Part shown: piece after piece, positions 21,339-45,713 of the stretch
How the letters are laid out: every line of letters starts with the position of its first letter
How positions within the stretch are numbered: position 1 is the stretch's first letter
NCBI RefSeq assembly: GCF_000426365.1
Contig: NZ_AUFF01000003.1
Coordinates: 1 to 64,000, forward strand
Direction of reading: 5' to 3'
Origin: Arenimonas composti TR7-09 = DSM 18010
Lineage (GTDB): Bacteria > Pseudomonadota > Gammaproteobacteria > Xanthomonadales > Xanthomonadaceae
DNA: 64,000 nt
Notes under the pieces: model-generated
Seen by the model: only the letters and a program-made list of their open reading frames with translations
What the model was told of the DNA's origin: nothing
The model's database searches: none
Translations under genes and position numbers: made by a program

Positions 21339-21470
21339 GCGAGAAACGAGAAACGAGGAACGAGCGTAGGAGCGGCTTCAGCCGCGATCACTCACCACTC
21401 GCGCGCGAAGCACCCCCGCGCCCCAAGCGCGGCCGCCACTCGTTTCTCGTTCCTCGTTTCTCGTTTCTCA
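21339..21470. repeat. Composite inverted repeat B (ACGAGAA heptamer arms with REP core)
   Basis: The left arm (21339-21364) and right arm (21439-21470) are built of 7-nt units GAGAAAC/GAGGAAC and are reverse complements of each other. A REP-like unit, starting GTAGGAGCGGCTTC, lies inside at 21366-21388. The element begins 2 nt after the asparaginase-like stop and fills the convergent gap up to the terminator of the protease gene. Confidence 0.9.
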
Positions 21471-28361: not shown

Positions 28362-28793
28362 ATGCCTTCTTCGCAACCCTCCCGCCCGTCCGCCTGGGTG
28401 CTGCCGGCCTTCGCGCTGCCGGTCGCCGTGCTCGGCGCCGCCGCGCTGTGGCTGGGCCTGCGCCTGGTCCTGCGCGGACCCGGCGTCGGCTGGTGCGTCT
28501 GGGTGGCGCCGCTGATCGCGCTGGACGTGGCCTTCATGCTCCGCCTCGCCGCCGCCCCGGCCGGCCGCCTGCGCGCCGGTCTCGCCGTCCTCGGCACCGC
28601 CGCGGCGATCGCCTTCGGCTACTGGACCGTGGTCGCCGCCGAGATGGCCGCCCTGATCGGTCTCACCATCCCGGAATCGATCCAGCGCCTCGGCCCGTCG
28701 CTGTTCTGGACCCTGGTCGAGCGGGGCACGTCGGCGTGGGAGATGGCGCTGGTGGTGACGGCCCTGCCGCTGGCGTGGTGGCTCGCGCGGTAG
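28362..28793 (+). CDS. Hypothetical membrane protein
   Basis: A 143-aa protein with four hydrophobic segments at roughly residues 12-35, 43-62, 71-95 and 125-141 and short charged loops. A conserved-looking stretch between the third and fourth helix reads IPESIQRLGPSLFWTLVERG. I do not recognise a family. It is divergent from sufT with 59 nt between starts, and convergent with pntB. Confidence 0.75.
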   Translation: MPSSQPSRPSAWVLPAFALPVAVLGAAALWLGLRLVLRGPGVGWCVWVAPLIALDVAFMLRLAAAPAGRLRAGLAVLGTAAAIAFGYWTVVAAEMAALIGLTIPESIQRLGPSLFWTLVERGTSAWEMALVVTALPLAWWLAR

Positions 28794-28794
28794 G

Positions 28795-28942
28795 GCGAGC
28801 AACGAGAAACGAGGAACGAGAAACGAGTGACGGCCCGCGCGCCTTGCGGGCGAAGAGCGAGTGGAGTGGCCCCGCGCCGGGAGCCGGATAGCGGCTGAAG
28901 CCGCGCCTACTCGTTTCTCGTTCCTCGTTTCTCGTTCCTCGC
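28795..28942. repeat. Composite inverted repeat D (ACGAGAA heptamer arms with REP core)
   Basis: The 33-bp arms at 28795-28827 and 28910-28942 are reverse complements with one mismatch and consist of 7-nt units GAGAAAC and GAGGAAC. A variant REP unit lies just inside the right arm at 28888-28910. The element fills the whole 150-nt convergent gap: 1 nt separates it from the membrane-protein stop and 1 nt from the pntB stop. Confidence 0.93.
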
Positions 28943-28943
28943 C

Positions 28944-30365
28944 TCAGTGCCCGTCGACCGCCTTGAGCTCCGACACCAGCTGCCCCACTGCCGCCGCCGC
29001 GTCGCCGTAGAGCATGCGGGTGTTGTCGGCGTAGAACAGCGCATTCTCGATGCCGGCGAAGCCGGTGCCCTTGCCGCGCTTGATCACGACGGTGTTCTTC
29101 GAGGCGACGACGTCGAGGATCGGCATGCCGTAGATCGGCGAGGCCGGGTCGGTCTTCGCGACCGGGTTCACGACGTCGTTGGCGCCGATCACCAGCGACA
29201 CGTCGGTGGTCGGGAACTCCGGATTGATGTCGTCCATGTCGGCGATCAGGTCGTAGGGCACCCCGGCCTCGGCGAGCAGTACGTTCATGTGTCCCGGCAT
29301 GCGCCCTGCGACCGGATGGATCGCGAACTTCACCTTCACGCCGCGCTTGAGCAGCACCTGCGTGAGTTCCCAGACCTTGTGCTGTGCCTGCGCGACCGCG
29401 AGGCCGTAACCCGGCACGATCACGACGCGCTCGGCGTAGGCCATCATCGCGGCGACATCGCCGGCCTCGATGGGCTTCTGCGCGCCGCTGATCTCGGCCG
29501 CCTGCCCGCTGGCGCCGAAGCTGCCGAACAGAACGCTGGCGATCGAGCGGTTCATCGCCTTCGCCATCAGCTGCGTCAGCATCGTGCCGGCGGCGCCCAC
29601 GACCATGCCGGCGATGATCAGCGCCTCGTTCTGCAGCACATAGCCTTCGAAGCTCACCGCCAGCCCGGTCAGCGCGTTGTAAAGCGAGATCACGACCGGC
29701 ATGTCGGCGCCGCCGATCGGCAGCGTCATCAGCACGCCGACCGCCAGCGCGGCGACGAAGAAGCCGATGATCGCCGGCTGGTCCAGCCCCCAGACCACCA
29801 GCGCGCCGAGCACCAGCGCGGCGACGAACACCAGTGCGTTGAAGGCCTGCTGCCCGGGGAACACGAATCGCTTGTCCATGCGCCCGTCGAGCTTGGCCCA
29901 GGCGATCACCGAGCCGGTCAGCGAGATCGAGCCGATCAGGGCGCCGACCACCGCCAGCACCAACGCCGTCGTCGGGATGCCGGCCGCAGCCGCGCCGTCG
30001 ACCGGGAACGGGCCGGCGTGGGTGGCCGCCGAGAACTTCAGCAGCTCGACCGCGCCGATCGCCGCCGCCGAACCGCCACCGAGGCCGTTGTACAGCGCCA
30101 CCATCTGCGGCATGTCGGTCATCGCGACCCGCTTGCCCGACCACCAGGCGACCACGGTGCCCAGCACCACCGCCGCCAGGATCAGCGGGATGTTGTGCAT
30201 GTCGGGCAGGAAGAAGGTCGCGACGGTGGCGACCAGCATGCCGGCACCGGCCCAGCGGATTCCGCTGGCCGCCGTCTTCGGCGAGGCCATGCGCTTGATG
30301 CCGAGGATGAACAGCAGGGCCGCGACGAAATAGCTGGCCTTCACCAGCAACGGCAGCCAGCTCAT
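28944..30365 (-). CDS. pntB: NAD(P) transhydrogenase subunit beta
   Basis: PntB is the NADP(H)-binding membrane subunit of the proton-pumping transhydrogenase. The 473-aa protein has nine or so TM helices and a soluble C-terminal dIII domain with VPGYGLAVAQAQHKV (NADP-binding GYG), FAIHPVAGRMPGHMNVLLAEA, IGANDVVNP and IKRGKGTGFAGIENALF. Its start overlaps the alpha-2 stop by 4 nt. The alpha-1 gene is not contiguous: it lies at 32305, beyond an oppositely oriented sigma-factor cassette. Confidence 0.97.
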   Translation of the reverse strand: MSWLPLLVKASYFVAALLFILGIKRMASPKTAASGIRWAGAGMLVATVATFFLPDMHNIPLILAAVVLGTVVAWWSGKRVAMTDMPQMVALYNGLGGGSAAAIGAVELLKFSAATHAGPFPVDGAAAAGIPTTALVLAVVGALIGSISLTGSVIAWAKLDGRMDKRFVFPGQQAFNALVFVAALVLGALVVWGLDQPAIIGFFVAALAVGVLMTLPIGGADMPVVISLYNALTGLAVSFEGYVLQNEALIIAGMVVGAAGTMLTQLMAKAMNRSIASVLFGSFGASGQAAEISGAQKPIEAGDVAAMMAYAERVVIVPGYGLAVAQAQHKVWELTQVLLKRGVKVKFAIHPVAGRMPGHMNVLLAEAGVPYDLIADMDDINPEFPTTDVSLVIGANDVVNPVAKTDPASPIYGMPILDVVASKNTVVIKRGKGTGFAGIENALFYADNTRMLYGDAAAAVGQLVSELKAVDGH

Positions 30366-45575: not shown

Positions 45576-45713
45576 AGAAACGAGAAACGAGGAACGAGAA
45601 ACGAGGAACGGGAAACGAGTGGGTGCGCCCGTGCCCGGCGGGCGCGGAAAGAGGGGGGAGTGATCGCGGCTGAAGCCGCTCCTACGGGTTTCTCGTTGCT
45701 CGTTTCTCGCCTT
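45576..45713. repeat. Composite inverted repeat E (ACGAGAA heptamer arms with REP core)
   Basis: The left arm (45576-45619) holds about six 7-nt units GAGAAAC/GAGGAAC; the right arm (45686-45711) is a shorter, less perfect reverse complement. A REP-like unit lies at 45663-45685, next to the right arm. Unlike the other four composites this one sits between co-directional genes, after the ahpF stop and before the DUF5706-like start. Confidence 0.88.

Follow-up and report, generated by a model that had tools for sequence, protein, structure and literature searches.

Inverted arms of tandem heptamers beside stop codons in Arenimonas composti: a candidate foldback insertion family

Background

What kind of element fills the space between two convergent genes completely, from one stop codon to the other? 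The question is raised by a locus in the 64-kb window, i.e. the whole stretch of DNA that was analysed, 64,000 nucleotides of contig NZ_AUFF01000003.1 of Arenimonas composti TR7-09 = DSM 18010, whose genome size is 3.16 Mb. At this locus a membrane-protein-like gene (28398..28793, + strand, delimited by our own gene caller and annotated by the original prediction) ends with TAG at 28791-28793, and a pntB-like gene (28944..30365, - strand, from our own gene caller, the name again being that of the original prediction) ends with a stop at 28944-28946, which is TCA on the + strand. The original prediction described in the gap two inverted 33-bp heptamer arms around a REP-like core, and proposed either a bidirectional element that stops transcription or protects RNA ends, or a non-autonomous mobile element that targets gene ends.

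We examined the element, its copies in the host genome and its counterparts in relatives and in other taxa, with genes called throughout by our own codon model, for which six genes of the window served as seed. With somewhat better than an even chance, we regard the locus as a member of a foldback insertion family that is REPIN-like in layout and tolerated beside stop codons.

Results

One foldback from stop to stop

The gap of 150 bp between the two stop codons, 28794-28943, is one foldback over its full length. Sequence and RNA fold place the left arm at 28794..28828 with GAGRAAC units on the + strand and the right arm at 28909..28943 with the units on the - strand; the units are thus read inward from both flanking genes, and the arms, each of 35 nt, are paired at 34 of 35 positions. 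The two inverted heptamer arms with one mismatch are therefore real and slightly longer than predicted, and the element, which was said to span all but two bases of the gap, occupies the whole of it. Between the arms lies a core of GC-rich hairpins (28829..28908) with a degenerate REP (consensus TAGGAGCGGCTTCAGCCGCGA) at 28886..28910 on the - strand, which overlaps the first bases of the right arm and, counted by eye, has two mismatches to the REP pattern. The RNA fold of the element is predicted at -100.1 kcal/mol with a z of -9.28, a value that none of 200 shuffles equalled.

An intrinsic terminator was considered for this element and rejected, since a stem followed by a T-run is absent from 28794-28943 and a terminator scan of 28600-29150 gave one weak match (shuffled mean 0.2, sd 0.5); the earlier statement that this is not an ordinary terminator holds. 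A search of the 64-kb window against Rfam at the gathering score returned four tRNAs only and left the element without a family match.

The two related copies predicted in the window, at 21339 and 45576, are real as well, each with an exact REP. The former (21340..21469) lies in a convergent gap, has its REP at 21367-21387, and is separated from its right-hand gene by a terminator-like hairpin. The latter (45576..45709, REP at 45664-45684 on the - strand) lies between tandem genes rather than convergent ones, with a stop codon 3 bp away.

Copies and gene context in the host genome

With the arm pattern CGAGRAACGAGRAACGAG at <=2 mismatches, 101 forward and 113 reverse matches (214) were found genome-wide, against 0 forward and 1 reverse for the reversed control of the pattern at the same threshold in the same genome. 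Analysis of 40 stretches around listed matches and of the window itself, with place C16 left out, located at least 48 arm clusters, a set which was drawn at a permissive threshold among the matches listed and is neither complete nor strong throughout. One cluster without a right-hand neighbour was dropped from the context counts; among the 47 with both neighbours, 26 have two opposed arms, 13 have minus arms only and 8 plus arms only, and the 21 one-armed clusters count against a foldback family. The polarity is plus then minus (GAGRAAC->...<-) in all 26 two-armed clusters.

Mapped against convergent gene pairs, the clusters (n=47) are convergent in 21 cases, tandem in 25 and divergent in 1, while the arm-free gaps in the same DNA are convergent in 17, tandem in 139 and divergent in 17 (chi-square p 1e-7), which corresponds to a convergent enrichment with an odds ratio of 7.4 (p 3e-7). 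Arm-free gaps of >=80 bp, which are convergent in 4 cases, tandem in 39 and divergent in 12, differ from the clusters as well (p 8e-6). The nearest stop codon is <=14 bp away in 25 of 46 clusters, two of the 48 having no usable stop. Location by itself does not show function, because part of the text of PMC3733652 reports REPs at the same places; and since REPs too have this residence at gene 3' ends, we write that the elements are found at gene ends rather than that they target them. Being found there is the part of the predicted targeting that stands; arrays inside genes elsewhere and two divergent loci among nine of the host's own TAGGAAG-type loci, both described below, speak against targeting.

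By eye, hairpins like intrinsic terminators stand beside or inside some elements. One element (L142, G000:C5:33042-33203) shows by eye a short inner hairpin of opposite sense, and this element and another (L139, G000:C4:85873-86054) have a terminator-like hairpin between the two arms; in the orthologues of both in the congener G004, again judged by eye, the terminator-like hairpin is present without arms. Such an inter-arm hairpin with a counterpart in G004 is not simply explained by the insertion of a unit.

Orthologous gaps and lineage-specific units

Pattern search with <=1 mismatch showed that GAGRAAC arms are absent from all 26 congeners, and among 34 other relatives (60 searched in total) one genome, G029, has arm matches, 24 in number. 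Across the class, 369 sampled genomes include 13 with matches, the host among them, and the highest other genome has 8.

At the pntB locus, a convergent neighbour was called in 16 of 26 congener pieces, with a gap of 0-41 bp, the homology of this neighbour being established for G004 only; four congeners show 468-607 bp with no convergent gene called close by, and the other six pieces are fragments or uncalled. The pntB gene is about 91% identical between the host and G004, and the bases of the two genomes are not matchable one to one because G004 has diverged. From the G004 matches, 30 loci were picked. The neighbour is unchanged in 23 of these, where the host gap is longer in 16, shorter in 6 and equal in 1; when the G004 gap is <=160 bp (n=18), the host gap is longer in 16, with medians of 163 bp in the host and 66 bp in G004. 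In G026, 7 of 10 loci keep the same neighbour, the host gap being longer in 4 and shorter in 3. The gaps that are longer in the relative (6/23 in G004, 3/7 in G026) count against a foldback insertion family. At L136, 108 bp lie between host genes whose G004 counterparts have a 4-bp overlap, and at L131 and L135 an arm is read into the C-terminus of a protein whose G004 counterpart has a different C-terminus there. At the species level, the notion of a non-autonomous mobile element fits these data: dispersed copies, none in 26 of 26 congeners, and gaps longer than those of G004 in 16 of 23 cases.

Two of the 23 orthologous gaps in G004 carry arms of another heptamer, TAGGAAG (L218 for L128, L245 for L135). 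A genus-wide scan found 14+21 TAGGAAG arms in G004 and 6+4 in the host, 8+3 TAGGAAA arms in G023, and none of either kind in the 24 other genomes scanned. The loci displayed share the + ... - layout of the GAGRAAC elements, and unit and architecture are therefore separable. The nine TAGGAAG-type loci of the host comprise 4 convergent, 3 tandem and 2 divergent ones (L278, L281), and the divergent ones weaken a strict rule of gene 3' ends. In the pairs L128/L218 and L135/L245, foldbacks of different units stand in the same orthologous gaps of two species; either the sites are old and their units were exchanged, or they are hot spots.

Constant arms and variable cores

In Pseudoxanthomonas composti, one 30-bp arm that includes a GTGGAGA unit in fixed position has 151 matches (<=3 mismatches; control 0), and at least 41 exact copies occur among the matches listed. 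The first 30 exact places listed, a sample selected for this one arm, represent 26 distinct elements, in which adjacent arms are +- in 24 cases, -+ in 2, ++ in 1 and -- in 2. Stop distances fall between -12 and +13 in 21 of 30 places; the context (n=26) is convergent in 6, tandem in 18 and divergent in 2, and the convergent excess of the host is not strongly seen. Many of these arms begin at AGGAACGAG, while the outer ends of host arms vary. No target-site duplication was seen by eye in the 26 elements, which also counts against the foldback family.

While the arms are constant in P. composti, the cores vary: in 24 cores with a median of 31 bp, 0 of 274 pairs are alike, the mean fold z is 0.14 and no fold (0/24) is significant. 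A core derived from a parent transposon, as in MITEs, was not found among these short and mutually unrelated sequences. Cores are thus clearly free to vary in P. composti, but not in every group. The fold z is -1.38 for the 26 cores of the host (significant in 11), -1.41 for six cores of Gemmatimonadaceae (significant in 3) and -0.14 for eight of P. yeongjuensis and P. wuyuanensis (significant in none); for the TAG-type cores, folds are significant in 1 of 6 in the host, 2 of 4 in G004 and 0 of 3 in G023. The seven cores of Clostridia are strong hairpins, all significant, with a fold z of -4.70. Host cores (likeness 0.344 vs 0.259) and Clostridia cores (0.471 vs 0.216) are related to each other beyond chance, so that variable cores are not universal.

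Covariation of the arms was tried as proof of RNA structure, and the result was weak only. Likeness is slightly higher between partner arms than between arms from different elements (0.690 vs 0.653, reached by 180 of 20000 shuffles), and a second test agrees (0.488 vs 0.403, 129 of 5000 shuffles); arm lengths within an element are uncorrelated (rho 0.12, p 0.57), and in 2 of 26 pairs an arm matches its true partner best. This weak likeness fits a kept stem, and also common descent or occasional mirroring.

These comparisons bear on whether the foldback is a functional bidirectional 3'-end element, with a stem that would block 3' exonucleases or stop convergent read-through and a layout that would be selected while the heptamer drifts. 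Such a function would suit the closeness to stops and the convergent enrichment of the host clusters, the very stable fold at the pntB locus, the slight partner-arm likeness, the layout kept with TAGGAAG and TAGGAAA units, and the hairpins of Clostridia. It is unlikely nevertheless: arm lengths are uncorrelated, partners are rarely each other's best match, all 26 congeners lack GAGRAAC arms at the same genes, and REPs occupy the same address according to the part of PMC3733652 compared. The missing T-run, the separate terminator-like hairpins and the unstructured cores of P. composti leave the predicted stopping of transcription or protection of RNA ends without support.

REP and Y1 transposases

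The host has 441 REP matches and its congeners 0 to 118, with any match in 17 of 27 genomes. The REP had been predicted as the shared core of the elements, and as a constant core it is rejected, given that 9 of the 48 clusters have the strict REP 12-mer enclosed by their outermost arms; 19 have it within 120 bp, and a variant REP adds 4 more. No arms are near any of 27 Y1_Tnp loci (within about 1.5 kb; 7 genomes, RAYT and other Y1_Tnp pooled), a result that rejects a RAYT adjoining the arms and counts against the foldback family too. Next to one of the five host Y1_Tnp loci (L157, G000:C2:478478-481741), TAGGAGCGGCTTCAGCCGC-type REPs stand on both sides, and its gene is likely a RAYT with its own REP family, distinct from the heptamer arms. 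Because REPs stand beside one Y1_Tnp locus and arms beside 0/27, REP and arms are two systems with common addresses. No GTAG- or CGTC-tagged stem-loop was seen by eye in the arms of the host and P. composti.

That the elements are REPINs or BIMEs moved by a RAYT, the core REP being mobile and the heptamer arms carried along as passengers, is decidedly improbable. The abundance of REPs in the host, their position at L157 and the exact REPs in the copies at 21339 and 45576 would be expected; the rarity of strict REPs between arms, the lack of arms at Y1_Tnp loci, the arm-bearing genomes G029 and G071 with no Y1_Tnp match, and the congeners that have up to 118 REP matches without arms would not.

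Other taxa and arrays inside genes

An exact 24-mer scan of genome contigs found at least 106 loci, in Pseudoxanthomonas, Stenotrophomonas, Luteimonas, Prevotella, Clostridia, Gemmatimonadaceae, Planctomycetota, cyanobacteria and others, a taxonomic spread that is a lower bound. Twenty genomes chosen from the 24-mer loci, and G029 in addition, contain 2 to 262 matches each; these genomes were selected for having matches, and the reversed control gave 10 in the Prevotella genome, 1 in two others and 0 elsewhere. The opposed-arm layout occurs also in Pseudoxanthomonas, S. ginsengisoli, Gemmatimonadaceae and Clostridia, and one reversed pair (-+) was found in Planctomycetota NC670; over the loci L009-L114, adjacent arms 8-100 bp apart are +- in 46 cases, -+ in 6, ++ in 7 and -- in 3.

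Arm clusters lie inside called genes 14 times in Prevotella and 10 times in the MAG RI_491, and the in-gene arrays are in sense in 12 of 17 and 12 of 12 cases, respectively. The ClpB of Prevotella ruminicola KHT3 (L105 1-1615) has an in-frame GAGRAAC array in its middle domain (SREARNEERGTRN) and exceeds the best solved ClpB match by four residues; the OGDH E1 of RI_491 shows a four-residue gain against its best solved relative. Twelve in-frame sense arrays occur in RI_491 at L046, L067, L076, L098 and L038, among them those of MurE and OGDH E1, and one array-bearing gene of this MAG is presumably PriA-like. MurE was rejected as a case of insertion, its array being in frame with zero net residues against the best solved relative.

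Among tandem arrays, period 7 accounts for 212 of 372 at L009-L114, loci which were chosen for the GAGRAAC heptamer so that the count is biased by selection, and for 0 of 21 at congener pntB loci. Other heptamers (GGAGTGA, GAATGAG, GGTCCCC and others) form arrays near the GAGRAAC ones, and arrays with a period of 7, 14 or 21 number 253, of which 134 are neither AACGAGG nor AAACGAG.

The prevalence of period 7, the many other heptamers nearby and the weak mirroring of the arms agree with an origin without any mobility, by which heptamer satellites would arise through slippage at gene ends and be mirrored by template switching across a local hairpin. We consider this quite unlikely, as the exact 30-bp arms of P. 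composti with GTGGAGA fixed in place need copying between loci, and one unit common to the whole genome is not expected under independent slippage. Highly improbable is a telomere-like addition, in which an RNA-templated polymerase would extend both 3' ends of a break with a species-specific heptamer and the ends would be joined via filler DNA. It predicts the polarity, with the unit sense outward from each flank, uncorrelated arm lengths, unique cores, a fixed period of 7, a species-specific unit and a patchy spread over phyla; the fixed internal order and outer ends of the P. composti arms stand against it, as do the slight partner-arm likeness and the related cores in the host and Clostridia.

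Discussion

We return to the foldback insertion family as the preferred reading. In its favour stand the observed inverted arms, their copy number, polarity and position, the shorter gaps of relatives, the constant arms around variable cores in P. composti, the lineage-specific units and the in-frame arrays within genes of other taxa. Its unit would be two constant inverted arms of tandem heptamers with a core free to vary, inserted into gaps that are short in related species. Survivors would be found where insertion costs least, i.e. just past stops, between convergent genes and in gaps from a stop to a downstream promoter, and their position would then reflect tolerance rather than targeting. 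Within a genome the arms would stay alike and the number of units would change, presumably by slippage, and the heptamer would drift between species. Movement would most probably proceed by copying or excision via a single-stranded hairpin of the arms, carried out by a putative enzyme that acts on heptamer arms, with effects on transcript ends, if any, being secondary. If the family is immobile, the genome-wide homogenisation of a seven-base unit needs explanation. Such gaps are unsafe to read as terminators, and one unit may replace another from species to species within an unchanged layout.

The elements share with simple sequence repeats and STRRs of heptamers the tandem seven-base units in mostly intergenic positions. 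Foldback and Galileo transposons are eukaryotic elements with a known transposase. They resemble the present family in their long inverted arms with internal repeats (PMC3573991, in the part of its text compared, as for each paper cited below), and differ in that no transposase is linked to the heptamer arms here.

REPINs (Bertels and Rainey 2011, PMC3116915) are similar in their inverted conserved ends, less conserved spacer, hairpin formation, extragenic position and many copies. Inverted ends occur in all 26 two-armed host elements, and residence near the 3' ends of convergent or tandem genes is common to both; REPIN ends are tagged palindromes, whereas the arms are heptamer arrays without a tagged stem-loop in each end, and no arms stand near Y1_Tnp genes (0/27 loci). 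The REPIN spacer is reported to be capable of a hairpin, unlike the P. composti cores, which do not fold (PMC3116915). REPs with GTAG or CGTC tags adjoin the 3' ends of convergent and tandem genes, and like the heptamer-arm elements they may supply a stop codon with their ends and have some copies inside ORFs; the arms have neither tag nor stem-loop of their own, and a tagged REP makes up no more than part of the core (PMC3733652).

In the literature consulted, the 17-mer GAGGAACGAGGAACGAG was in no paper found, and an inverted heptamer-arm family was absent from titles and the starts of abstracts. Heptamers as such are on record in several lineages. GGGNATC heptamers of Xanthomonas and Nostoc occur in sense <=50 bp after stops and in antisense <=50 bp before starts (Rehm 2015, PMC4692102); they too form intergenic arrays, with a strand polarity that is that of inverted arms, and this strand rule follows from inverted arms, although in the text compared they are treated as single G-quadruplex arrays instead of opposed arms, and GAGRAAC has no G-tract. 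In the P6b loop of the Nostoc trnL intron, 7-nt repeats form both stem sides and the repeat class is swapped while the structure is kept, but this is one intron locus and the heptamer-arm family is dispersed (PMC4476775). The TAACTGA heptamers of Beggiatoaceae are likewise intergenic and patchy across phyla, with shorter, repeat-free gaps in relatives, but they are direct repeats, mostly just before start codons, with a single inverted case (MacGregor 2015, PMC4679880). The heptamers of Xanthomonas, Nostoc and Beggiatoaceae were described separately and, in the parts compared, with no mechanism; an opposed-arm unit with a free core offers one testable frame for them.
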